From Modicisalibacter luteus DSM 23508 (GTDB lineage: Bacteria > Pseudomonadota > Gammaproteobacteria > Pseudomonadales > Halomonadaceae): a stretch of DNA of 64,000 nt. This document shows, one piece after another, positions 33,197 to 46,494 of this stretch. The notes under the pieces are model-generated. The model was not told the origin of the DNA. It worked only from the letters and a program-made list of their open reading frames with translations, and ran no database searches. The stretch spans positions 1 through 64,000 of the forward strand of contig NZ_KB899999.1 in NCBI RefSeq assembly GCF_000378505.1. Reading direction: 5' to 3'. The translations under genes and the position numbers were made by a program. The first letter of the stretch is position 1. The number at the start of each line of letters is the position of its first letter.

Positions 33197-34606
33197 TCAT
33201 GGAGTGACAAGGTGCAACATTGGCGACATGGCCATCCCGCCCTGTACCCCCAGGCTCGTCACCAGCAGCAATATCGCGCTGATCAGCATCGCAAGCGCTG
33301 AGGAACGGCCAAGGGTCGGAATCTCGGCCTGGCCGGGCTGGAACGCCATCGCCGCGATGACGCGCAGGTAGTAGAACAGCGATAGCACAGTGTTAATGAC
33401 AGCGACCACGGCCAGCCAGGCGTAGCCGGCAGCCATGGTCGCTTCGAACAGAAGAAACTTGCCGAAAAAGCCCACCAGCGGCGGAATCCCTACCAGCGAC
33501 AGCAATGCCAGAATCAGCACCGTTGCAATCAATGGCTGAGTCCTTGCCAGACCATGATAGTCAGCCAGGCAGGTGCGCCCACGCAGATGCGTGACCACAC
33601 CAAACGCCGCCAGGTTGGCAAGAAGGTAGGCCAGCATAAAGCCCAGCAACGCCGTCATGGCCTGTGCTGTACCGATCACCACCACTGCCATCAGTGCATA
33701 ACCTGACTGCGACACCGACGACCAGCCCAGCAGGCGACGCACATCGGTCTGGCGCAGCGCCGCGAGGTTGCCCAGTGTCATGGTGACTACGGCGATCAAC
33801 GCCACGATAGGGGCCCAGGCCACACTCTCCGGCAGAATCGACACGAAGCGTGCCAACGCCACGGCTGCACCAACCTTGGGCACCACGCTCAGCAGCGCGG
33901 CCACCGGGGCCGGGGCGCCCTGGGCGACATCCGGCATCCAGGCATGTCCCGGAAAGGCCGCCAGCTTGAAGCTTAGCCCGATCACGATCCCCATCGTGGC
34001 GATGCTCAGCGCGAACTGATCGCCACCCTGCGTCGCGAGCCGCTCGTCCAGGTGGGCATAGTCGGTATCCCCCGCCAGCCCGAACAGGATCACAACGCCA
34101 GTGGCCAGCAACGTGTTGGTCAGCGCCCCGATCAAAAAGTACTTCATTGCCGCTTCCAGCCCCGGCGACCAGCCGCGGTGATAGGCTACCAGTGGATAGC
34201 TGGCCACCGAGGAGAGCAGTACGCCGACGATCAGCTCCATGGCATCGTTGGCCGAGGCCATCATGATGGCGCCGAGCAGGGCGAACAGGACCAATGCATA
34301 GTATTCACCATGGCGCCGGTCCGTGAGCATCCACGCCGGCGACAGCAGTACGGCAATGGCGCCGCCGACCAGTATCAGCCCCTTGGCGGCGATGGCCGGT
34401 CCATCCATGGCCCAGACACCGGAGAAGGTCGTGCGAGGGAGCGATGACCACTGGCTCCATGTCAGGCCGAACGAGACTGCCAGGACAAACAGTGCCAGCC
34501 AGGCCCCCCAGTGCTGGCGCTCGTGGGGCGTGAAGGCCGCCAACAGGACAATGGCCACGGCACCGACCAGCAGGACGATCTCGGGCAGCAAGTCACCAAC
34601 GGGCAT
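33197..34606 (-). CDS. NuoN-like antiporter subunit of a complex-I-like membrane complex
   Basis: 469 residues, about 14 transmembrane helices, homologous to NuoN. Ion-path residues are kept: Glu in NDAMELIVG (TM5), Lys in SFKLAAFPGHAWMPD (TM7), Lys in SVVPKVGA (TM8) and Lys in GFFGKFLLF (TM12). The ATG at 34606 has a GGGAGG site and touches the nuoM-like stop (TGATG). It is the last gene of an eight-gene operon in which no NADH, FMN or Fe-S subunit is present. I expect it to conduct ions but not by ordinary NADH:quinone coupling. Confidence 0.9.
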   Translation of the reverse strand: MPVGDLLPEIVLLVGAVAIVLLAAFTPHERQHWGAWLALFVLAVSFGLTWSQWSSLPRTTFSGVWAMDGPAIAAKGLILVGGAIAVLLSPAWMLTDRRHGEYYALVLFALLGAIMMASANDAMELIVGVLLSSVASYPLVAYHRGWSPGLEAAMKYFLIGALTNTLLATGVVILFGLAGDTDYAHLDERLATQGGDQFALSIATMGIVIGLSFKLAAFPGHAWMPDVAQGAPAPVAALLSVVPKVGAAVALARFVSILPESVAWAPIVALIAVVTMTLGNLAALRQTDVRRLLGWSSVSQSGYALMAVVVIGTAQAMTALLGFMLAYLLANLAAFGVVTHLRGRTCLADYHGLARTQPLIATVLILALLSLVGIPPLVGFFGKFLLFEATMAAGYAWLAVVAVINTVLSLFYYLRVIAAMAFQPGQAEIPTLGRSSALAMLISAILLLVTSLGVQGGMAMSPMLHLVTP

Positions 34607-36093
34607 CAGCGGCCTCCCACCAGGATGGCCGACGAGGCATCGATCAGCGTGAGCAAGAAGCGGGGATAGACACCGATGATCACGATGCCCAGCGACAGTC
34701 CGCCAAGCACGCTCCATTCAGTCCGGGACAGCTCGGAGAATTGGCCCAGGTGCGTCGGCAGGTGACCGAAGAACAACCTGCGCAGCATGTCGAGAAACAG
34801 CGCGGCAGTGATCAGGATTCCCACTACCCCCAGCACAGCAAGCCATGGATAGACGGCAAACGTCCCGGTAAATATCTGGAACTCGGCGACGAACCCGGCC
34901 AGCCCCGGCATGCCCAGGCTGGCGAAGGACGCCAGCACCGTGAAGCCGGTCAGCAGCGGCGCCTGATAGGCCAGGCCACCGTAGTTATCCAGGGCGTAAT
35001 CGCCTGTACGTTGCCAGAACGAGCCCGAGATCAGGAACAGCGCCCCGGTAATCAAGCCATGTGCCACCATTTCCACCGTTGCCCCGGTCAGTGCCAGTTG
35101 GCGCACCATCGGGTTATCGGTGACCAAGGCGGCTGCCACGGCGATACCCAGGACCGTGTAGCCCATATGATTGATCGAGGTATAGGCGATGCGCCGCTTG
35201 AGGTTGGATTGGCCCAGCGCCACCAGCGCGCCATACAGGATCGCGACCAACGCAATGATGGCCACCGGCAGCGCGTAGCGGGCGAAGGTCTCCGCCATCA
35301 TCGCGAATGGCAGACGAATCATGCCGAAGGTACCCAGCTTGAGTAGCACCCCGGCCAGAACCGCCGAGGCCGGTCCCGGTGCATCGACGTGCGCCTGTGG
35401 CAACCAGGTATGCAGCGGTACCAGAGGCGTCTTGATCGCCAGTCCCAGCATGAGCGCCAGGAACACCAGGCCAGCGTAGGCTCCCGTGCCTGCCAGCGGT
35501 TGCTCGGCAATCAGTACGCGCATGTCGAAAGTCGGCGTTTCCAATGACAGGTAGAGGCCGATGATGCCCAACAGCATCAACAACGAGCCGGCAAAGGTAT
35601 AAAGAAAGAACTTGAGCGCCGCCGTCTGCGCCTCGCCATGCCCCCAGCGCCCGATCAGGAAAAACATGCCGACCAGTGTCAGATCGAAGAATACATAGAA
35701 CAACAGTAGATCCAGGGTCAGGAATACTCCCAGCGAGGCTCCCTGCAGGAACACTAGCCAAGCGTAGTACTGGCGTGGCTGACCACGGGTATCCACCGGA
35801 TAGAGGATAGCGGCCACGAATAGCACGGCGCTCATGGTCGCCACCGCCAGCGCAATGCCATCGGCCCCTACACGGTAAGCGACCCCCAGCGATGGTACCC
35901 AGCGCACCTCGTCAATGTGCTGGAACAACGGCCCGGCTGGATTGAAGCCGGTCCAGGCGAAGACCAGCGCCAACAGCGACAGGCCGGCACTGCCCACCGC
36001 GACCCAGCGCGCCTGGCTCTGCGTCCAACCAGGCAGTAAGGCCAGTGCCAGCGCGCCGAGCCAGGGAATGACCAACGCCAATGTCAGAATCAC
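34606..36093 (-). CDS. NuoM-like antiporter subunit of a complex-I-like membrane complex
   Basis: 495 residues with about 14 helices. The TM5 acidic residue is Asp (VFFDLTLVGMFFLIG) where NuoM has Glu. Lys in AIKTPLVPLHTWLPQAH, Lys in LLKLGTFGMIR and Glu in GFVAEFQIFTG are kept. The frame is open further upstream, but a GTG at 36093 with GGAG site overlaps the nuoL-like stop as GTGA and starts the family sequence. Sits between L and N, as in canonical nuo operons. Confidence 0.9.
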   Translation of the reverse strand: MILTLALVIPWLGALALALLPGWTQSQARWVAVGSAGLSLLALVFAWTGFNPAGPLFQHIDEVRWVPSLGVAYRVGADGIALAVATMSAVLFVAAILYPVDTRGQPRQYYAWLVFLQGASLGVFLTLDLLLFYVFFDLTLVGMFFLIGRWGHGEAQTAALKFFLYTFAGSLLMLLGIIGLYLSLETPTFDMRVLIAEQPLAGTGAYAGLVFLALMLGLAIKTPLVPLHTWLPQAHVDAPGPASAVLAGVLLKLGTFGMIRLPFAMMAETFARYALPVAIIALVAILYGALVALGQSNLKRRIAYTSINHMGYTVLGIAVAAALVTDNPMVRQLALTGATVEMVAHGLITGALFLISGSFWQRTGDYALDNYGGLAYQAPLLTGFTVLASFASLGMPGLAGFVAEFQIFTGTFAVYPWLAVLGVVGILITAALFLDMLRRLFFGHLPTHLGQFSELSRTEWSVLGGLSLGIVIIGVYPRFLLTLIDASSAILVGGR

Positions 36094-37967
36094 AGCAAGG
36101 CTCCTATCCACAGCAACAGTAGGATCAATACGCAACCGGCTGCAATGCCGGTGTAATAGTGGTGGGTCTGACCACTCTGGGCCTGACGGGCCCAGTGGCC
36201 TCCCCGCTCGCTCAGTCGGGCCAGCGCCCCGGGCAGAGAATCTCCGATAAACTCACCGCGTGTCGCGTTGAACCGGGCCAACCAGGTCCCGACACGAGCC
36301 GTCGCCCGCAGGCCGGCATCGACCACCTCGTCGTCAATGCGCGCCAGCCCTCGGCTGCACGCCAACGCTGCGGAGGCAATGGCCTGGGTCGCCACGGGCA
36401 ATCCATACCACTGCGCAGCGAGCCGCTGCCACTGTGTCGTCGGCGGCACTCGCCGCTCGGGGCGCGTCAGCCAAAGTCCAGCAACTACCCCTGCAGCGAT
36501 AAAAGCCAGGGACACGAGATGCATCCACACATGACTGGAGGGAGCCCGCATCTCGAGCATGGCCATGAGCGGCTGATGCACGGCGGGGAACCATAGCAGC
36601 GACAGCAGGACGGTTCCCGCTACCAGGGCACGCAATGCCCAATCCTCGGGCCGGGACGGCCCCGGGCCCTTCGGTAACCCATGCCGATCCCCCCGCGGCG
36701 GACGCCCATAAGACAGACGCTGGAAACGCGTGGCATAAAATGCACTCAGCCCGCCGACCGGTATGATCAGCAGGGCCAGCCAGGTACCAACATCGCTTGC
36801 AGCGGCAATGATCTGCTCCTTGGCCCAGGCTGCGCCCAGTGGGTCGATGCCGGCCAGGGCCAGACTCGAGAGCAGGGCCATCACTGCCACGCCCGGCAGC
36901 AAACGCCCAAGTCGCATGCGTGCCAGGTCGAAGGTGCCGACCTGGCGCTCGGCCTCGCCCGCCGATAGGAATAGCCCGGCTTTCATGAAGGCATGGGCGA
37001 TGAAATACATCATCGCTGCACCGGGGTAGCCGGCGCCCACTGCGATCCACATCAGCCCATACTGGGCCGAGGTCGAGGCGGCCAGCAGTTTCTTGGCATG
37101 CCATTGGCACGCTGCGGCGATGCTGCCTGCGAAAGCCGTTACTAACCCGATGGCGATGGTGACGGGTGCGAACCAGGCCACCGCCGATAGGGTCGGCTCC
37201 AGGCGTACGAGCAGGTACAGGCCGGCACTCACCAGAGTCGCCGCATGGAGAAGAGCGGACACCGGCACCGGCCCCGACATCGCTGCAAACAGCCAGGCAG
37301 AGAACGGTAGCTGGGCGGACTTGGCCGCCGCTGCCAGCAGTATTCCGGCCACTGCGACGTGCTTCAGGCCACCTTGTAGCTGGGCCAGATCGTCATAACC
37401 GAAGCCGCCACTACCGGCAAACACTGCGCCAGCAGCGATGTACAGGCCGAGGTCACCGAAGCGTGTCACCAGAAAGGCCGTGGTCGCATCCCGTGGCACG
37501 TGAGGTTCGCCCCAACGATGCGAGATCAGCGCCCAGGAACACGCCCCGATCAGCTCCCAGGCGATCAGCAAGGTCAGCAGGTCATTGGCAAGGACCAGCA
37601 GTTCCATGGCCCCGACAAAAGCCACCAGCATCGCTAGTAGCCTCGCCCCGCTGCCCACCCTCACCGAGTCGCCGTGGCGCGTCAGATCGTGATAACTGGC
37701 ATAGATGACGATGGGCAAGGCAACCAGTGGCACCAGTACCGCAGCAACGCGACCGGCCGGCGACATCGCCAGGCCGAGCGTCATAGCCTCGCTCCATACA
37801 TAGTGACTCGACACACCGAGAGCCTCTGCCAGGCCAACCATGACCAGCACCATCATTAGCCCCGATACAGCCAGCAATACCAGCCCGGCCCGGCCGAGTC
37901 GCCGGCCAAGCAGGTACACCACGGCCGCCAGCAGCAGCGGAACGAGAGATACAGCCCACAACGTCAT
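36090..37967 (-). CDS. NuoL-like antiporter subunit of a complex-I-like membrane complex
   Basis: 625 residues, the usual NuoL length. Conserved channel residues include Glu in WELIGACSWALI (TM5), Lys in AAKSAQLPFSAWL (TM7), His in LLHAATLVSAG (TM8) and Lys in AWAKEQIIAAA (TM12). The C-terminal region (about 510-625) provides an amphipathic stretch and a last transmembrane helix like the lateral arm helix HL, which implies assembly with M and N rather than action alone. The ATG overlaps the nuoK-like stop. Confidence 0.92.
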   Translation of the reverse strand: MTLWAVSLVPLLLAAVVYLLGRRLGRAGLVLLAVSGLMMVLVMVGLAEALGVSSHYVWSEAMTLGLAMSPAGRVAAVLVPLVALPIVIYASYHDLTRHGDSVRVGSGARLLAMLVAFVGAMELLVLANDLLTLLIAWELIGACSWALISHRWGEPHVPRDATTAFLVTRFGDLGLYIAAGAVFAGSGGFGYDDLAQLQGGLKHVAVAGILLAAAAKSAQLPFSAWLFAAMSGPVPVSALLHAATLVSAGLYLLVRLEPTLSAVAWFAPVTIAIGLVTAFAGSIAAACQWHAKKLLAASTSAQYGLMWIAVGAGYPGAAMMYFIAHAFMKAGLFLSAGEAERQVGTFDLARMRLGRLLPGVAVMALLSSLALAGIDPLGAAWAKEQIIAAASDVGTWLALLIIPVGGLSAFYATRFQRLSYGRPPRGDRHGLPKGPGPSRPEDWALRALVAGTVLLSLLWFPAVHQPLMAMLEMRAPSSHVWMHLVSLAFIAAGVVAGLWLTRPERRVPPTTQWQRLAAQWYGLPVATQAIASAALACSRGLARIDDEVVDAGLRATARVGTWLARFNATRGEFIGDSLPGALARLSERGGHWARQAQSGQTHHYYTGIAAGCVLILLLLWIGALL

Positions 37968-38269
37968 TGCTTGAGCTCACTCAGTGCTTCCGTGGTATCG
38001 GCCTGCTTGCCGCGGAACACGGCTACCACCAGGGCAAAGCCCATCGCCATCTCGATAGCCATGACCGCCATGACAATGATCGTCAACAGTTGGCCCTGCG
38101 GCGCGCCGGCGCCGCTATAAGCCCAGAAGGCCACTGCGGCGAGCATGGCGCCATTGAGCATCAGTTCGAGCCCCATCATCAGCATGACGAAGGATTGCTG
38201 CGATAGCGCGCCGTACAGGCCAATGCCGATCAGTGCGGCGGCGAGTAACAATAGCGTGACCAGTGACAT
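37964..38269 (-). CDS. NuoK-like subunit of a complex-I-like membrane complex
   Basis: 101 residues, three transmembrane helices. The two buried glutamates essential for coupling in NuoK are kept, in GLELMLNGAML and AIEMAMGFALVV. The ATG at 38269 has an AGGAGG site; 59 further in-frame upstream codons are not family sequence. The stop overlaps the nuoL-like start (ATGA). Confidence 0.92.
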   Translation of the reverse strand: MSLVTLLLLAAALIGIGLYGALSQQSFVMLMMGLELMLNGAMLAAVAFWAYSGAGAPQGQLLTIIVMAVMAIEMAMGFALVVAVFRGKQADTTEALSELKQ

Positions 38270-38294
38270 TCCAGCCTCCTTGCTGGCAGCACGT

Positions 38295-38918
38295 TCAGTG
38301 ATGATGGTGGTGGTGCTCGTGCCCACCCTCTGACTCGCCCTTCTCGGGCTGGCCGGCTGGGTCACCTCCGGGCTCCAGCCCTGGTGGTACCGAGCCCTCC
38401 TCGGCCGCGCCGTAACGACCACGATGGCTGGAGAGCACGACCACACCGATCATGGTGGCAAGCAGCACGATTCCCGCTGACTCGAAGATCAACATCGAGT
38501 CGCCAAGCATTTCATGACCCAGCGAGCGCACCGGATCGAGGCCGGCCGGCAGCGGGTCCGCAGGAAAACTCGAGAATAGCGCCATCGCGGCGAGAATGAA
38601 GAAAGCCACGGCTCCGGCGATGATCGACAGGCGATGCTGATGCACCATCATCATTGGGTTGAGCCCCGCCGGGTTCATCATGAACATGACCATGAATAGC
38701 GCCATGACCATCATTTCCACGGCCATCATGAAAAACATCGCCACGCCCAGGTATTCCGCAGCCAACAGCATCATGATCGCGCCGACGGCAATGAACGATA
38801 CCAGCAGAAAGAACGAGGCGCGCACCATAGAATCGGTGCGGAACACCCGCCACCCGGCCACGACCGCCAGCACCGCGAGCAGCAGGAAGGCGATATCCAC
38901 GAAAATCGAATGTTCCAT
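38295..38918 (-). CDS. NuoJ-like subunit, Met-rich helix and polyhistidine tail
   Basis: 207 residues with five hydrophobic segments like NuoJ; LLAAEYLGVAMFF corresponds to the conserved TM3 with its pi-bulge. Two oddities are visible. TM3 and the following loop are extremely Met-rich (FFMMAVEMMVMALFMVMFMM and NPMMMVHQH). The soluble C-terminus ends in Gly/Glu/Pro-rich sequence and HEHHHHHH. Both could bind soft or transition metals, though this is inference. The ATG at 38918 follows AAGGAGA and lies 11 nt after the nuoH-like stop. Confidence 0.88.
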   Translation of the reverse strand: MEHSIFVDIAFLLLAVLAVVAGWRVFRTDSMVRASFFLLVSFIAVGAIMMLLAAEYLGVAMFFMMAVEMMVMALFMVMFMMNPAGLNPMMMVHQHRLSIIAGAVAFFILAAMALFSSFPADPLPAGLDPVRSLGHEMLGDSMLIFESAGIVLLATMIGVVVLSSHRGRYGAAEEGSVPPGLEPGGDPAGQPEKGESEGGHEHHHHHH

Positions 38919-38929
38919 GCTCGTCTCCT

Positions 38930-39853
38930 TCATGCCCATAGGGCCAGTACCCCGGCCCAGACCAGATCGACGAACGACAGCGGTAGCAGCACTATCCACA
39001 TCAGCGTGACGCAGCGCTCCGGCGCCACCCGGGGCAGCCATTGTCCCAGCCACAGCAGCAGCGCCAGCACGAACAGCGTCTTGAGTAACACCCAGACCGG
39101 CCCGGGCAGCCACGGCCCCAGCCAGCCACCAAGGAACGCCGTGGCGGCAATCCCGCTGAACGCTACCAGCATGACGGCGCGGGCACACTCCCAGACCAGT
39201 CGCGACGGCCCCGACACCTCAGCAGCGGTGCCCCCAGCCAGGTCCGTCGAATCGGCCAGATTGAGCGGTCCCCAAAAGGTCAGGCCCAAGCCCACGACCA
39301 GAAACAGCGGCAGGCCCAGTGGCTGGCGCACCACGTTCCATAGCGACTCCTGCGATGCAACGACCTGAGTCAACTGCAGCGACTCGGCAGGCAGGGCGGC
39401 ACCGATCAGTACAAACATGCTGATCAGAATGTAGGACAGGCCCAGCGCCACGTAGCGATAAGCCCCGATCAAGGGCAGCACGGCATTGGCCGACCAGCCA
39501 TGCAGGAAGATGACCACCGTGGCTAGCGCTTCTACGCTGCCCCACAACACCACGCTGGTAACCAGATCGGTCGCAATCAGCGTTGGCGACCAGGGCACCA
39601 GCGCCAGGCCAACCGCCGCCAGAGCCAGATAGAGCGCCGGCGCCAGTCTCCAAGCCTGCCAATCGGGTGCCTCGGTGGCGTTGGCATGTTGCGTCAATAG
39701 CCAGGCGGCCCGCGACAGCGGGCCCAGCCAGACGTCGCTCGCCAGTGCGCCTCTCGGAGCCGTCGCCACGAGACGGTCCATCACGGCGACCACATACGGA
39801 CCCAGTGCCAGCACAACCAGTACCATGAGCAGCGAAGCAAGCGATTCGATCAT
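38930..39853 (-). CDS. Degenerate NuoH-like subunit of a complex-I-like membrane complex
   Basis: 307 residues, eight predicted helices, homologous to NuoH/HycD. GWSANAVLPLIGAYRYVALGLSYILI and GGWLGP fix the family. The quinone-site loop, normally ETNRxPFDLPEAEAELVxG, is replaced by DSTDLAGGTAAEVSG, and the Arg-rich first loop of NuoH is mostly lost. It probably joins the soluble fusion protein to the membrane arm but may not bind quinone. The ATG overlaps the stop of the B-D fusion (ATGA). Confidence 0.85.
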   Translation of the reverse strand: MIESLASLLMVLVVLALGPYVVAVMDRLVATAPRGALASDVWLGPLSRAAWLLTQHANATEAPDWQAWRLAPALYLALAAVGLALVPWSPTLIATDLVTSVVLWGSVEALATVVIFLHGWSANAVLPLIGAYRYVALGLSYILISMFVLIGAALPAESLQLTQVVASQESLWNVVRQPLGLPLFLVVGLGLTFWGPLNLADSTDLAGGTAAEVSGPSRLVWECARAVMLVAFSGIAATAFLGGWLGPWLPGPVWVLLKTLFVLALLLWLGQWLPRVAPERCVTLMWIVLLPLSFVDLVWAGVLALWA

Positions 39854-41112
39854 ATGTTCGCCCTTCCCGAGGTTTCAGCCACCTCGCGACTATCCAGGCT
39901 GGCTATCAAGGTCATGGCTTCGTCCCACTCCAGCCCGGGCAGCAACTGGTCGAGAAGGGCACTAGCATCCTGAGGGGGCTTAGCGGACCACGGGCCACGG
40001 GGCGTCTCGACAGCCTCGGTATTGGCAGTATGCAGCCCATCGGGTTCAGCCTGCCGGGCCAGCTGCAGTGACTGATCGATTTCCGCCAGCCGCTGCTCCC
40101 AGCGTGCACGCACCGTGCCGTCAGTACGGCATTGCGGCCTGAAGCCCAGCCGCTGGTAGCTGGCATCGTCCATGCGCAAGTCCGCGTCCAGGCCAGCGGC
40201 ACGCGCCGCAGGCCCACCTAGACGAGCAGCCATCTCGGTGTCGAGCTGCCCGCCATCCATCGCTGCCAAGTGAAAGATACCGCTACGCACCAGCTGACGG
40301 CGCAATCCGTCGAGCCGAGATGCCGTCGATAGCTGCCGGGCCAGGCTCAGGGCATGGCGGGCTATCCGCTCGAGCCCCGCCAGGTGCAGTCCACGATAAA
40401 GCTGCACCAGATGGTATCTGGCACGTGCCAGCTCGAGCTCGGCGATCGGCACGGGGCGCTCCCGCGCGGCATAAAAGACCGGGGCGAGCCTCTGCGGCAA
40501 AGCGCCATGCCGGGTTTCCCATGACTGAATCACGTCTCCCTGCAGGGTAATCTCTGCGCAGAGCCCGCTGGGCAGGGCGGGATAGAACGGTCCGAGCCGG
40601 AAGGTCAGAGAATCCAGTGTCAGCCCGTCGCGCAGATCATCCTGCATGTTCATTGCCATGGGCCGGCCATAGGGGGTACCTCCCATCATGCCCTCACCGC
40701 CATGGCCGTCATCGCCCAGCCCTTCCCAGGGGTTGGGTGGCTCATCCGGCAGCAGTCGTGAGGCGCTATCGCGCTGCCCCAGCATCAGCTCACGATGGGT
40801 CCGGATCAGCGTATCAACTAGCCGGTCAGCCTCATCGACATGAATCGGTGCGTTCAGCGCTATCAGGGGCGCTCCGCGAAACCACACAACGGCAAACGGC
40901 GATGGCAGTTGATCATGTACATGCTTCAGGCCGTCACGAAGGGTTGCCGGGATCTCACCGACTACCAGTAGGACACTGGCATGTCGGGGCGAGTCGACCA
41001 GTTCGATTTGCGTCGACAGGACGAGCGTCGCCAGCAACGCTTCGTCGTGCTCTCCCCAGACGGGATACACCGGCACACACGAGCGCGCCGCCAGTTGCCG
41101 CAGCCAGCTCAC
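39850..41112 (-). CDS. Fused, cysteine-less NuoB/NuoD-like (group 4 hydrogenase-like) protein
   Basis: 420 residues, not membrane-spanning. Residues 1-90 resemble NuoB/EchC: IELVDSPRHASVLLVVGEI, then HVHDQLPSPFAVV, align with the VGSPRHADVLLVTG and VYEQ-P-PK-VV motifs. The CxGCDIE segment is replaced by GEHDEAL and no N2-type cysteines remain. Residues 165-355 resemble NuoD/group 4 large subunits: LTFRLGPFYPALP, GGPAARAAGLDADLR, then DGTVRARWEQRLAEIDQSL. No CxxC pair for NiFe exists. A Gly/Met/His insert (131-156) links the halves. The GTG start overlaps the nuoA-like stop; the frame runs 212 codons upstream spuriously. Probably structural rather than redox-active. Confidence 0.75.
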   Translation of the reverse strand: MSWLRQLAARSCVPVYPVWGEHDEALLATLVLSTQIELVDSPRHASVLLVVGEIPATLRDGLKHVHDQLPSPFAVVWFRGAPLIALNAPIHVDEADRLVDTLIRTHRELMLGQRDSASRLLPDEPPNPWEGLGDDGHGGEGMMGGTPYGRPMAMNMQDDLRDGLTLDSLTFRLGPFYPALPSGLCAEITLQGDVIQSWETRHGALPQRLAPVFYAARERPVPIAELELARARYHLVQLYRGLHLAGLERIARHALSLARQLSTASRLDGLRRQLVRSGIFHLAAMDGGQLDTEMAARLGGPAARAAGLDADLRMDDASYQRLGFRPQCRTDGTVRARWEQRLAEIDQSLQLARQAEPDGLHTANTEAVETPRGPWSAKPPQDASALLDQLLPGLEWDEAMTLIASLDSREVAETSGRANI

Positions 41113-41456
41113 TGCCACCGGAACACTCCTTCTCGCCAGGCATAGACAATGCCCACCGACAGGATGGCCAGAAACATGCCCATTTCCATCACGGCCATCA
41201 TGCCCTTTTCGACGAAGACAACCGCCCATGGATACATGAACATCATCTCCATCTCGAAAGCGATGAGCAGCAGGGTCATCGGATAGTAACGAATGTGATA
41301 GCGGTTCCAGGCATGGGTATCGGGAGTTCCGCCGCCCAGGAACGGAATGCGTTGGGAGTAGGAGGGCTGCGGCTGATGGCGCAAGGGCCACGCTTGAATG
41401 AATAGCCCGGCAGACAGTGTCAGCGCCAGGATGATTACGAGCGTCAGCAGTTCCAT
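41109..41456 (-). CDS. NuoA-like subunit of a complex-I-like membrane complex
   Basis: 115 residues, three helices. NRYHIRYYPMTLLLIAFEME followed by MMFMYPWAVV matches the NuoA core, including the two buried acidic residues. The conserved Y-E-C/S-G loop of NuoA is changed to FLGGGTP. TM3 is Met-rich. The start codon has only a weak ribosome site. It is the first complex gene, 78 nt downstream of the copper-storage gene and just past a hairpin. Confidence 0.87.
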   Translation of the reverse strand: MELLTLVIILALTLSAGLFIQAWPLRHQPQPSYSQRIPFLGGGTPDTHAWNRYHIRYYPMTLLLIAFEMEMMFMYPWAVVFVEKGMMAVMEMGMFLAILSVGIVYAWREGVFRWQ

Positions 41457-41479
41457 CGTGCGTCTCGTGTGCTAACTCG

Positions 41480-41516
41480 ACAAAGAAAGGCCGGCAGGAA
41501 GAATGACCTGCCGGCC
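41480..41516 (-). terminator. Terminator or attenuator between csp and the complex-I-like operon
   Basis: On the minus strand a 10-bp stem, GGCCGGCAGG / CCTGCCGGCC, with an 8-nt loop is followed by TTTCTTTGT. Only about 30 nt separate its end from the nuoA-like ATG, too little for a separate promoter of normal form. It therefore probably lets part of the transcription from the csp promoter through. Confidence 0.75.
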
Positions 41517-41534
41517 GCCGGCCTGCCGATGCTA

Positions 41535-41861
41535 TCAGGCCATGGCCTGGCACTCTTCGGCACACCGCATGCAAGCTTTCGCGCACTGCTGGCAGTGATC
41601 CATCTCGTGCTTGGCGCACTCTTCGCCGCACTTGCGACAGATATCCGCACACAGCCGGCAGATTTCCTTCATGTACTCGCTGTCCTGGGCCATGAACGAG
41701 GCCGCCAGCCGGCAGATTTGGGCACACTGCATGTCGAGCCGAATGCACTCGGCCATCATCTTGACGTCATCTTCCTGCAGGCAGGACACCGCACAGTAAT
41801 CGCAGTAGGTCGCGCATTCATTACAGGCATCGATACATGACTTCAACTTCTCGAGATCCAT
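41535..41861 (-). CDS. Four-helix-bundle copper storage protein (Csp-like, DUF326)
   Basis: 108 residues with 17 or so cysteines in CxxxC and CxxC patterns (CIDACNECATYCDYC, CADICRKCGEECAKH, CQQCAKACMRCAEECQ), the layout of Csp3-type proteins whose Cys-lined bundle stores many Cu(I) ions. No signal peptide, so cytosolic. The ATG has an AGGAG site; a promoter is predicted 70-100 bp upstream. It sits between the copper-resistance cluster and the complex-I-like operon. Confidence 0.92.
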   Translation of the reverse strand: MDLEKLKSCIDACNECATYCDYCAVSCLQEDDVKMMAECIRLDMQCAQICRLAASFMAQDSEYMKEICRLCADICRKCGEECAKHEMDHCQQCAKACMRCAEECQAMA

Positions 41862-42054: not shown

Positions 42055-43305
42055 TTACTGAGAAGCGACTTCGCCCAGGGCCTGATTCTGGTTGGACACT
42101 TCTGTGTAATTGCTTGCGTTGTACTCAGACTGCTTTATTTCTTCCACGCTCTGGTTGGTTTGCCATACCAGCCGATCGTTGTTCATCTGCAGCTCGTTCA
42201 GAGGGACAAGGAGTTCTTCCTGACCGGCGCCGAGCACACCGCCACGAGTAACCACTACACCGACCTGATTACTATTGTTGGCAGTAACCACATGATCGAC
42301 TTCGCCAAGCTCATTGCCCGACGTGTCAAAAACGCGCTGCCCTTCGATATCCGTCACCATCAGGCTATAAAGGGCGTTCTGCTGGGACCCTGAGTTCTGT
42401 TGTTGCTGTTGCTCGCCTTCGACCACTTGAACATCGGCATTGTTGGCCTCTTCTACCGTCACCTCAGGTTCGGCCCCGGCAACATTTACATTGGGATCGG
42501 ACGACTCGACCTGTACCTGAGCCTGGCCACTATCGTCGCGTACCGCGACATTGGCCTGCTCATCCCCGTCCACGGCGACACGCGGCTTGGACGGTTGTAC
42601 CGCGACTTCGGGCTCGGGCTGGTTAACAGACACATCAGGCTTGCCCTGGTTGACCGTAACTTCAGGCTTCTGCTGAATTACCTCGACTTCGGGCTTATTC
42701 GTGTCGACCTGAACATTCGGGTCACGCATGACTACCTTGACTTCAGGATCAGGGACAGTGACCTCTACCGTAGGCTTGGGCTGTGTGACGATAACCTTGG
42801 GCTTCTGCTGGTCGACTGTCACTTGCGGATCCGCAGGATCCACTTTCACCTTCGGCGCCTTCTGGTCTACCGCCACTTCCGGCTCGGCGGGATCGACCTG
42901 CACCTCGGGCGGATCGGTGTCGACGACGACCTTGGGCTGCTGGGATTGGACGACGACTTCTTCCGGTGCATCTACGTTCTGGCCCCGTTCAGTAATGGCG
43001 ACCAAAAGAGGCTGGAATTCCTGAAGGTTGAGCGCCTGGTCATTATTGCGATCATACTCGCTCATTACCTGTTCGCGGTTCTGCTGCATGTTGGCTTCGT
43101 TAAGGCGCTGCTGAACCTCATCCCATTGCAGCGACTGATCCCCGTTCTGGTCCAGCTGGTTGAATTCGGCACTCACCCTTTGTTCAACCTGACCACTTGC
43201 CTGTTGAGCAAAAGCAGGCGACATTGCCAGCGAGACACCAGCGGCACTCACTGCAGCGATCTGAAGGCCTAGCTTGTGCAGTTTCGGCTTCTGTTCCATG
43301 TGCAT
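42055..43305 (-). CDS. Exported EF-hand / nonapeptide-repeat / PRC-barrel protein
   Basis: 416 residues. A signal peptide (about 1-33) is followed by two EF-hand-like calcium loops (DQNGDQSLQWDE and DRNNDQALNLQE). From Pro124 on, at least 14 in-register copies of a nine-residue unit PxVxVxxxx (for example PEVQVDPAE, PKVKVDPAD) form a probable beta-solenoid or extended stalk, with looser copies to about 290. A Gln/Asn/Ser stretch leads to a PRC-barrel domain at about 310-375. An AGGAG site precedes the ATG. I know no characterised homologue; a calcium-responsive envelope or surface protein is plausible. Confidence 0.75.
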   Translation of the reverse strand: MHMEQKPKLHKLGLQIAAVSAAGVSLAMSPAFAQQASGQVEQRVSAEFNQLDQNGDQSLQWDEVQQRLNEANMQQNREQVMSEYDRNNDQALNLQEFQPLLVAITERGQNVDAPEEVVVQSQQPKVVVDTDPPEVQVDPAEPEVAVDQKAPKVKVDPADPQVTVDQQKPKVIVTQPKPTVEVTVPDPEVKVVMRDPNVQVDTNKPEVEVIQQKPEVTVNQGKPDVSVNQPEPEVAVQPSKPRVAVDGDEQANVAVRDDSGQAQVQVESSDPNVNVAGAEPEVTVEEANNADVQVVEGEQQQQQNSGSQQNALYSLMVTDIEGQRVFDTSGNELGEVDHVVTANNSNQVGVVVTRGGVLGAGQEELLVPLNELQMNNDRLVWQTNQSVEEIKQSEYNASNYTEVSNQNQALGEVASQ

Positions 43306-45741: not shown

Positions 45742-46494
45742 TCAATGGGTATGCCCATCGGCATAATGGTCATCTTCCTGCGCCGAAGACGTCGGCTCCT
45801 GTTGGGTCGAAGGCTGCGCCCCAGAGGGGGGCGATGCCGTTTCTGGCTCGTCAGTTCCCTCATGATGGCCTGGCTGGGCACCATCGCCGTGCGCCCCCTC
45901 ACCCTGGGCATGATGCCCCTGTGAAGGCTCCTCCATCATGGCGCTCATGTCGCCATGGCTATGATCGTGACCATCGTCCTGCGCCGTACTGCCATCGCCA
46001 GACGATATGAGCGCCAAGTACTGCGGTTCGGAAAGCCCAGGCAGGCGCTGAAGAAACGCCACTATTTCCCAGAGCGCCTGATCGTCATGCGTCTCCCCCC
46101 AGGCCGGCATGCTCGACATCTTGATGCCGTGCTTGACGATCCAGAACTGCTCCGCAGGCGCCCAGTGCCCTTCTTCGGCCAGCACCGGCGGCTTGGGGTT
46201 GAGACCCTGGCGCAGTATCGTGTTCTCGAGTCCTGGGCGAAGATGACAGCTCACACACATCTGCTGGTAGGCGCGGGCGCCCTTGGCGATTAACTGGTCA
46301 TCGTCGAGGTCGGGCACATTGATACCCTCGGCGTGTTCCTCGACGGAATTGTGCATCGTTTCATGAAAAGCCCACTCCACCCAGGGTGTGTGGGCATCGC
46401 TGGCAGCCACGTTATAGGCTCCGCTATAAATGTAAGCAACGCCACTGAGTGCCAACAAAAGCAACGCCAGCATTGCTCCCAACAAGATCCTCAT
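45742..46494 (-). CDS. Cytochrome c with His/Met-rich metal-binding tail
   Basis: 250 residues. An N-terminal hydrophobic anchor (about 2-23), one haem site CVSCH at 80-84 and a probable axial Met in KMSSMPAWGE. After about residue 165 comes a tail of over 80 residues rich in His, Asp, Gly, Met and Gln (DDGHDHSHGDMSAMM and similar), ending HYADGHTH. It lies between copB and copR in the copper operon. A role in periplasmic copper binding or Cu(I) oxidation is plausible but unproven. Confidence 0.88.
   Translation of the reverse strand: MRILLGAMLALLLLALSGVAYIYSGAYNVAASDAHTPWVEWAFHETMHNSVEEHAEGINVPDLDDDQLIAKGARAYQQMCVSCHLRPGLENTILRQGLNPKPPVLAEEGHWAPAEQFWIVKHGIKMSSMPAWGETHDDQALWEIVAFLQRLPGLSEPQYLALISSGDGSTAQDDGHDHSHGDMSAMMEEPSQGHHAQGEGAHGDGAQPGHHEGTDEPETASPPSGAQPSTQQEPTSSAQEDDHYADGHTH

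Follow-up and report, generated by a model that had tools for sequence, protein, structure and literature searches.

We tentatively propose, from sequence and gene context, that the operon at positions 33,197 to 41,456 of the window (the whole stretch of 64,000 nucleotides analysed) belongs to a family of complex I-derived membrane machines that have lost redox chemistry and may have turned to the handling of a metal, most likely Cu+. The original prediction had described an ion-moving arm without electron input and left its driver blank. Neighbouring genes, protein domains and residues all point to a metal, probably Cu+, as the driver, which hence need not stay blank.

Organization, spread and intactness of the operon

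Eight open, tightly packed genes lie on the minus strand of the window between 33197 and 41456, in the order A-BD-H-J-K-L-M-N. They and the genes upstream are:

41109..41456, minus strand: subunit A (NuoA-like); PF00507, 85 bits
39850..41112, minus strand: BD, fused B-like/D-like subunit; GTG start
38930..39853, minus strand: subunit H (NuoH-like); PF00146, 132 bits
38295..38933, minus strand: subunit J (NuoJ-like); PF00499, 69 bits
37964..38269, minus strand: subunit K (NuoK-like); PF00420, 60 bits
36090..37967, minus strand: subunit L (antiporter-like, NuoL-like) with a long C-terminal extension; PF00361, 154 bits
34606..36135, minus strand: subunit M (NuoM-like), start codon uncertain; PF00361, 213 bits; TIGR01972, 459 bits
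33197..34606, minus strand: subunit N (NuoN-like); PF00361, 211 bits; TIGR01770, 343 bits
41535..41861, minus strand: DUF326 Cys-rich protein, directly upstream of A; PF03860, 63 bits
43755..45723, minus strand: histidine kinase (by Pfam) and response regulator (by eye)
45742..46494, minus strand: c-type cytochrome with a His-rich tail; PF13442
46545..49279, minus strand: CopB and CopA-type multicopper oxidase; PF05275, 232 bits; Cu-oxidase domains

The genes overlap by 4 bases at A/BD, BD/H, H/J and K/L, by 46 bases at L/M (with the start of M as given) and by 1 base at M/N, while J and K are separated by 25 bases. A, H, J, K, L, M and N each score above the Pfam cut-off of their own complex I family. 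With NCBIfam, K exceeds its Nuo cut-off (NF004320, 63.8 bits vs 57), M and N exceed that of one Nuo family each (TIGR01972 and TIGR01770), and A, H, J, L and BD reach none among the families listed. The Pfam matches and overlaps bear out the predicted set of eight coupled genes, seven encoding Nuo-like membrane proteins and one a degenerate soluble subunit. A terminator-like stem between the DUF326 gene and A was found by eye; the DUF326 protein is presumably of the copper-binding four-helix-bundle type.

In a single genome collection 116 stretches of the operon family were confirmed, and 80 loci were kept. The family forms two branches, type 1, to which the window belongs, and type 2, in which BD carries heavy-metal-binding domains (HMBD); a search for type 2 in the class of G371 (289 genomes) matched G371 alone. 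The sequences are related and some are near-identical (e.g. L045/L046), and the counts given here are not counts of independent events. In a NuoH tree, which drew long-branch warnings and contains one row translated in the wrong frame (t2_L167, its branch being meaningless), a 99/98 branch separates the family from every canonical row (32 in number) and from one Ehr-like row, and either type requires two changes. Judged from their names, many carrier hosts are marine or halophilic; Chromohalobacter (L041, L048, L049 and L056) is among the carriers. An anti-phage role was also considered and dropped, as five proteins scanned with PADLOC gave no match.

All eight genes are present as single frames in 68 of the 80 loci. 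Genes are split in five loci (L058, L069, L078, L079 and L110) and missing in eight (L040, L051, L073, L087, L094, L098, L104 and L110, the last thus on both lists). L104 is truly truncated: its L ends after ~133 aligned residues, with no M or N though the contig continues; the missing genes in the other seven are, judging by length, put down to contig ends. The dN/dS ratio is 0.04-0.18 against the nearest relative and ranges from 0 to 0.39 across five further pairs. The family is thus mostly not decaying and is kept under selection, with a few loci broken or truncated; intactness and low dN/dS speak against a pseudogene reading and agree with the earlier view of an ion-moving arm maintained after redox loss.

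Best matches to NuoB, NuoCD, NuoE, NuoF and NuoI were found in none of the 80 loci and six plasmid loci. NuoG best matches occur in L085, L033 and L037, and the L033 stretch holds an annotated formate dehydrogenase. The nuoB, nuoCD and nuoI genes that the original prediction would have sought elsewhere do exist in the window genome, inside a canonical nuoA-N operon that is complete and lies on another contig, and a search of 23 other carriers found NuoCD in 21. One might therefore regard the operon as a proton pump fed by the electron arm of canonical complex I or, given the split loci and truncated L104, as a decaying remnant. We consider this highly improbable: two carriers, G045 and G058 (the latter with M split over two frames), have no NuoB and no NuoD besides BD itself, which rules out a borrowed electron arm as a general need, and decay is at odds with the low dN/dS and the 68 intact loci.

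Retained channel residues and loss of the redox site

Residues of L, M, N, K, H and A were counted in E. coli numbering; the type-1 residue sets, those of J below included, omit L035, L036, L037, L079 and the window row. In L, E144, K229, H254, H338, K342, K399 and D178 are kept in nearly all rows, H334 is kept in 75/79 (Y in the window), and D400 is replaced by E in 75/79. The positions of E36 and E72 of K (E. coli numbering) are acidic throughout, with E or, in 8/85, D; the window K has E35 and E73. The TM5 glutamate of M, E144, is D in 75/75 type-1 rows and E in 5/5 type-2 rows, while that of N, E133, is lost, with L or V in 79/79 rows and Leu in the window. Hence the predicted retention of channel residues, including the Glu to Asp exchange in M, holds for L, K and M and fails at the TM5 Glu of N.

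The channel residues kept in L, M and K, together with the many hosts that are marine or halophilic by name, would also suit a metal-gated Na+(K+)/H+ antiporter for Mrp-like pH and sodium homeostasis, in which metal at BD and J serves as a switch during copper stress. The window genome, however, has two other PF00361 genes close together on contig 1 that appear Mrp-like from their size, and we regard such an antiporter as rather unlikely.

The quinone site is altered as predicted for A and H. E241 of H is R in 78/81 type-1 and 5/5 type-2 rows but E in 30/30 canonical rows, and E157, present in 30/30 canonical rows, is found in 3/81 type-1 and 0/5 type-2 rows; the H loop is altered in the window. 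E51 of A is present in 1/82 type-1 and 0/5 type-2 rows. BD consists of a B-like part (residues ~1-110) and a D-like part (~155-420), with a Gly/Met linker at ~129-156. It passes PF00346 (40.6 bits) via residues 264-355 only, and its NCBIfam match to NuoB is weak (16 bits, residues 39-76); a family profile compared with PDB sequences finds NuoB at BD 36-80 (E 1e-8) and NuoD at 265-356 (E 3e-7). The AlphaFold2 model of BD has a pLDDT of 88.2, and the top PDB matches are D-type subunits. In NuoB, a Cys pair provides ligands of the Fe-S cluster N2. The B half of the window BD has neither this pair nor the NuoB Cys pattern; among the 82 type-1 BD, CC occurs within the first 120 residues in two, and nine contain no Cys whatever. 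The NuoD quinone-loop motif is replaced as well. The claim that NuoC, E, F, G and I are absent from the locus and the NuoB cluster ligands gone is confirmed.

These losses bear on a further reading, a copper-redox-driven pump in which oxidation of Cu+ at the complex, by quinone or some other acceptor, supplies the energy to pump ions. Copper genes do adjoin the operon, and PMC8233155 suggests such a role in Marinobacter atlanticus. Against it stand the missing NuoB cysteines, the lack of NuoE, F or I best matches in the loci, the exchanges at E241 and E157 of H and E51 of A, and the replaced NuoD motif. Moreover, the potentials of copper and quinone lie near each other, which would leave little energy for pumping, and we think this reading quite improbable.

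Putative metal ligands, copper-gene neighbours and a transport model

The BD linker has the motif GxGGxGMMGGxPxGR in 82/82 type-1 proteins. In type 2, HMBD and His runs are found between the B-like and D-like halves; the HMBD motif occurs in 5/5 type-2 BD, with three PF19335 stretches (E 3.9e-45) in P0002, and in none of the 82 type-1 BD, window included. HMBD were also found in G371, G466, G499 and G132, and 12 plasmid records carry a heavy metal-binding annotation. Type 1 thus has no more than the Gly/Met linker and the Met- and His-rich J as candidate metal-binding features of this kind.

Subunit J contains 11 family-specific, practically invariant methionines, retained at 37-41% identity. 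Seven are in TM3 (M69, 70, 74, 77, 81, 85 and 86), followed by a loop M94xM96xH98 and a C-terminal His run. Met36, 69, 70, 74, 77, 81, 85 and 86 are present in 86/86 rows and Met94, 96 and 147 in 85/86, while 21 canonical rows have other residues at those of these positions that were listed, a single Met at 85 being the exception. Columns with at least 90% Met number 13 in the family vs 2 in canonical rows for J, 7 vs 0 for A and 6 vs 1 for K. Window methionines of J are retained in all five type-2 rows at 13/22 positions, compared with 13/68 for L/I/V/F (p 0.0008); for A and K, Met conservation is no different from that at the remaining hydrophobic positions (p 1.0 and 0.73). Five of the seven TM3 methionines fall inside an 80-degree arc, but a location of all seven on one helix face is not significant, 15% of random sets scoring equally high. 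The weak structure model of J (pLDDT 64) was not used. A His-rich J tail is seen in 71/81 type-1, 0/5 type-2 and 0/22 canonical rows. In A, the family-specific M69, M71 and M74 flank the kept acidic E68/E70, and H48 and H54 lie in the TM1-TM2 loop; the family-specific methionines of K are M29, M67 and M70. M92 of A, M32 of K and M83 of J were rejected as family-specific, since most or all canonical rows also have Met there; M161 of J is Met in 10/21. A plain sensor, as in the metal-gated antiporter, has no obvious need for ~11 fixed methionines across TM3 and loops of J.

Copper-resistance genes were defined by a reference set built from four plasmid loci and the window. They occur in the 10 kb upstream of 28/55 full-flank loci (of the 80 loci, 25 were under 20 kb long and were omitted), with two or more kinds in 18/55, as compared with 0/20 canonical nuo operons of carrier genomes (21 possible, G090 dropped). 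For Halomonadaceae alone the count is 15/27 vs 0/20 (Fisher p 2.5e-5). With that reference set, the upstream 10 kb of the other 27/55 loci contain no copper gene; a uniform copper context is thus absent, which is in line with the metal-gated antiporter. Six of the 27 (L049, L062, L072, L097, L102 and L118) have a copper-set match elsewhere or at a looser cut-off. A Pfam search of 24 of these 27 loci, which took in 211 of 271 ORFs in the flanks, found no common theme among the 25 listed out of 136 and out of 113 families; these included three RND pumps, two CusB/HlyD-type and two cation-efflux proteins. On plasmids, 5/5 type-1 contexts examined (of eight records; L037 copper-cluster genes assigned by our own search) lie in copper clusters, two with broken operons, as do 3/5 type-2 contexts examined (of 12 records), including one from Rubrobacter, another phylum.

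The neighbours are of the resistance type (CopA/CopB, P-type ATPase, CueR, DUF326), several on plasmids, and include multicopper oxidases and cytochromes. The latter two would also fit a metal importer or a device that loads cuproproteins by the same path in the opposite direction. Sequence does not fix the direction, but the resistance-type, partly plasmid-borne neighbours make an importer or loading device improbable.

The best model is a proton-driven Cu+ exporter. We infer that the metal is substrate rather than signal and that it is Cu+, as we do its path, the topology, which way the metal moves and which ion powers this. Several results speak against the model: the 27/55 loci with no upstream copper gene by our reference set, the lack of HMBD in the window type, an excess of Met conservation confined to J, TM3 methionines of J not significantly gathered on one face, and the TM5 Glu lost from N. 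Cytoplasmic Cu+ would be caught by the soluble BD, the window type using its Gly/Met linker and the other branch its HMBD and His runs. Loops of A (H48, H54) and J (M36, M94, M96, H98 and the His tail), which we take to be cytoplasmic from the NuoA/NuoJ topology, would share in the capture. The Cu+ could then pass through the former quinone cavity and along a putative methionine-lined path formed by TM3 of J with TM2 of A and TM2/TM3 of K. Inward flow of H+ (or Na+) via L, M, N and K, the reverse of complex I, would drive expulsion into the periplasm. How quinone-site chemistry is coupled to distant ion channels in complex I is a long-standing open question. A membrane arm without electrons to drive it, in which a metal ion seems to have taken the place of quinone, would set conformational coupling apart from redox, and such a relative would make this coupling directly testable.

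Comparison with known systems

A complex I-like operon, 'NuoADHJKL', co-expressed within a copper-resistance operon, has been reported for Marinobacter atlanticus (Eddie et al. 2021, PMC8233155; ACP86_11540-11570). The brief description there lists seven genes, the seventh hypothetical, and no nuoMN. It probably belongs to the same family; the passages concerned do not mention loss of cofactor ligands, a B-D fusion, an HMBD branch, a Met-rich J or a wide distribution. The three Marinobacter loci found here (L074, L077 and L078) do carry M and N.

With respiratory complex I (NDH-1, NuoA-N) the family shares seven homologous membrane subunits, and its gene order A-(B-D)-H-J-K-L-M-N is that of nuo minus C, E, F, G and I; it differs in having no NADH module, NuoI or NuoB cysteines. 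In energy-converting hydrogenase-related (Ehr) complexes, the B-type small subunit carries Fe-S and the D-type subunit lacks NiFe. The family resembles them in a D-like subunit without NiFe ligands, but its operon, which follows the nuo order, includes NuoA and three antiporter subunits, and its loci contain no NuoC or NuoI best match. As predicted, it goes beyond Ehr in that the cysteines of the B half are gone too.

Antiporter-like subunits, a K/MrpC homologue and the absence of redox cofactors are shared with Mrp Na+(K+)/H+ antiporters as described in PMC7419157. Unlike these, the family has A, H and BD, and its best NCBIfam matches are Nuo, not Mrp. Known copper exporters include the P1B ATPases and CusCBA. 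They resemble the family in the ligand chemistry of Met and HMBD, and are neighbours in some loci, but their protein architecture is unrelated. If copper is indeed moved, the family would represent a new architecture among copper exporters, partly plasmid-borne in marine and halophilic bacteria.

An eight-gene membrane arm without redox parts

The operon consists of closely packed open frames:
41456 to 33197, minus strand, eight-gene operon A, BD, H, J, K, L, M, N

Among the window proteins, A, H, J, K, L, M and N score over the Pfam cut-offs of complex-I membrane families, while BD, the fused NuoB-like/NuoD-like protein, passes that of the 49-kDa family via a single stretch only. Of the NCBIfam families listed, K, M and N each exceed one Nuo cut-off, and A, BD, H, J and L reach none. 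A profile of 59 BD sequences searched against PDB sequences places the NuoB similarity in residues 36-80 (E 1e-8) and the NuoD similarity in residues 265-356 (E 3e-7). AlphaFold2 gives a good model of BD (pLDDT 88.2, pTM 0.86). Judged by titles and chains, the 50 PDB matches listed for it are D-type (49-kDa) subunits or related proteins, formate hydrogenlyase and MBS among them, with 14-20% identity and TM-scores of 0.38-0.46 over the query. Residues 136-156 are its least ordered part (pLDDT under 50) and rank among the best-conserved stretches in sequence, a combination that would fit a segment folding on a partner or ligand.

The NuoB cysteine pattern is missing from BD: CC occurs within the first 120 residues in 2/82 rows of type 1, the window-type family members, and nine of these 82 rows lack cysteine entirely. 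The NuoD quinone-loop motif is replaced as well. In NuoH (E. coli numbering here and below), E241 is R in 78/81 type-1 rows and in 5/5 rows of type 2, the branch with heavy-metal-binding domains (HMBD) in BD, and E157 is kept in 3/81 and 0/5, respectively; both are E in 30/30 rows of canonical complex I. Across 80 loci and 6 plasmid loci, NuoB, CD, E, F and I gave no best match; three matches are NuoG-like, one of them lying where a formate dehydrogenase is annotated. The gene set and the missing cysteine pattern confirm the original prediction of a membrane arm without electron-input subunits, and its interpretation that redox chemistry was lost is right.

It had also stated that nearly all channel charges of L, M, N and K persist. 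This holds for L (the window has Y for H334), for K (E36 and E72 kept as E or D) and for M, where K234, K265, H241, H322, H348 and E407 are kept in nearly all rows and the TM5 Glu is Asp in type 1. In N four lysines remain, with K295 being R in type 1 and V in type 2, but its TM5 Glu is lost in 79/79 rows, which had been missed.

Distribution and independence from complex I

A scan with one genome per species gave 133 stretches, of which 116 were confirmed and 80 kept. All eight genes are single frames in 68/80 loci; genes are missing in eight and split in five, one locus counting in both. For the most part the operon is not decaying: compared with the closest relative, the genes have dN/dS values of 0.04-0.18, and five further pairs range from 0 to 0.39. 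The eight-gene family is real and under selection. In one Kiloniellaceae bin (L104, 12805-13176), among the eight loci with missing genes, the operon ends inside L, and M and N are absent although the contig continues. Two genomes hold two divergent copies each, Modicisalibacter xianhensis (L039, L040) and Salinicola peritrichatus (L042, L043).

Full-length BD was found in 24/146 relatives searched, the own genome included. At E 1e-8, 13 of 398 sampled genomes of the phylum match; on reading, five are window-type and four HMBD-type, and the one read of the other four (G186) is an ordinary NuoD. Rubrobacter type-2 plasmids place the family in Actinomycetota too; loci in Actinomycetota bins (L087, L094, L110) are incomplete. 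On the R. marinus plasmid (L167, 15020-15935) an H-like sequence is broken across two frames and appears in the annotation as a pair of short genes.

The family is INDEPENDENCE from complex I. In the NuoH tree a 99/98 branch has the canonical rows together on one side (one misread row; long-branch warnings). A further contig of the own genome carries canonical nuo in full. NuoCD is present in 21 of the 23 other carriers. In the remaining two, G045 and G058, the PF00346 match is BD alone and there is no NuoB. G045 matches in its coordinates L045 (Vreelandella maris), with all eight genes intact; G058, of the same genus label, has all eight, M being split over two frames. The original prediction had named nuoB/C/D/I genes elsewhere, if they co-purify with these subunits, as contrary evidence; the own genome has such genes within its canonical operon, yet G045 and G058 carry the family with no NuoB and no NuoD but BD. 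Borrowed electron-input subunits are therefore not a general requirement of the family. On an Azospirillum thermophilum plasmid (L168), a complex-I-like cluster combines homologues of NuoB, NuoC, H and L with a large subunit of hydrogenase type and lies near an aldehyde ferredoxin oxidoreductase.

Copper genes and metal-binding features

The window operon adjoins genes for a DUF326 protein, a two-component system, cytochrome c, CopB and the multicopper oxidase CopA. Read by eye, the sequence between the DUF326 gene and A (41460-41535) holds a GC stem that resembles a terminator, with TTTCTTT after it; the two genes may therefore be separate transcripts. At 42055-43305 lies a protein with EF-hand, PRC-barrel and a long PEVxV-type repeat region.

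Of 55 full-flank loci, 28 have copper genes in the 10 kb upstream; of 20 regions upstream of canonical nuo in carrier genomes, none does. The 27 loci without such a match share no common alternative theme in the flank families listed, and six have a copper-set match elsewhere or at a looser cut. Type-1 plasmid contexts are copper clusters in 5/5 read of eight records (Halomonas KO116, Roseivivax, Martelella, Vreelandella sulfidaeris, Acuticoccus), two of them damaged: an ISL3 transposase cuts the operon after its first two genes, beside the copper cluster, in Martelella mediterranea pMM259 (L036), and frame breaks in both operon and copper genes on V. sulfidaeris plasmid AP019515 (L037/L079) suggest sequence quality or decay. 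Type-2 contexts have copper genes in three of five read (12 records), including Rubrobacter marinus; in Paracoccus sediminicola and Thioclava they are not clearly present. The copper association is strong, not universal. Ergothioneine genes egtB/egtD were seen in 19/80 loci, downstream of N in 17 (e.g. L041-L046, L048-L050, L052-L056; L033:26102-28374). Ergothioneine could bind copper.

In 12 plasmid records (Paracoccus, Sulfitobacter, Thioclava, Nitratireductor, Roseovarius, Rubrobacter) the BD-type protein bears a heavy metal-binding annotation, and in four further genomes it reads so. HMBD and long His runs sit between the B-like and D-like halves; the motif is present in 5/5 type-2 BD examined, and the plasmid protein P0002 has three PF19335 stretches (E 3.9e-45). 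Type 1 carries an invariant GxGGxGMMGGxPxGR at this position (82/82). A His-rich J tail occurs in 71/81 type-1, 0/22 canonical and 0/5 type-2 rows.

In J, Met is fixed across both types (85 or 86/86) at 36, 69, 70, 74, 77, 81, 85, 86, 94, 96 and 147, and His98 in 85/86; the residues printed for 21 canonical rows are non-Met at these Met sites, save one Met at 85. Family J has 13 columns in which 90% or more of the rows are Met, canonical J has 2; the corresponding numbers are 7 versus 0 for A and 6 versus 1 for K. At 37-41% J identity between window and type 2, 13/22 window Met are also Met in all five type-2 rows, versus 13/68 for L/I/V/F (p 0.0008); the corresponding excess in A and K was not significant. 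Five Met of J TM3, in complex I the helix where the quinone site meets the channels, lie within an 80-degree arc; placing all seven on one face is no better than chance.

Proposed mechanism and relation to known systems

The original prediction left the driver blank and was incomplete here, as the neighbours, the HMBD branch and the conserved Met point to metal. Cu+ would be captured by the BD linker or HMBD together with A/J loops, then pass along J TM3, and its export would be powered by ion (proton) flow through the antiporter-like arm. The sequence features themselves are observed; from them we infer that metal is the substrate and Cu+ its identity, as well as the topology, the direction of transport and the ion that drives it, and a proton-driven Cu+ exporter is a bold and unproven reading of the sequences. 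The closest competing reading is a metal-gated Na+/H+ antiporter.

Among the titles and abstract beginnings listed, covering few subscription journals, we recognised no further paper on the family beyond PMC8233155, and the part available of a complex I genome survey (PMC12361115) does not contain the word copper. Within this scope, no earlier description appears to exist of BD as a cofactor-free fusion, of the HMBD branch or of the Met pattern. Eddie et al. 2021 (PMC8233155) reported a nuoADHJKL cluster inside a copper-resistance operon of Marinobacter atlanticus, both co-expressed, and suggested copper redox as its energy source. Within the complex-I superfamily, the family forms a new branch linked to metal.
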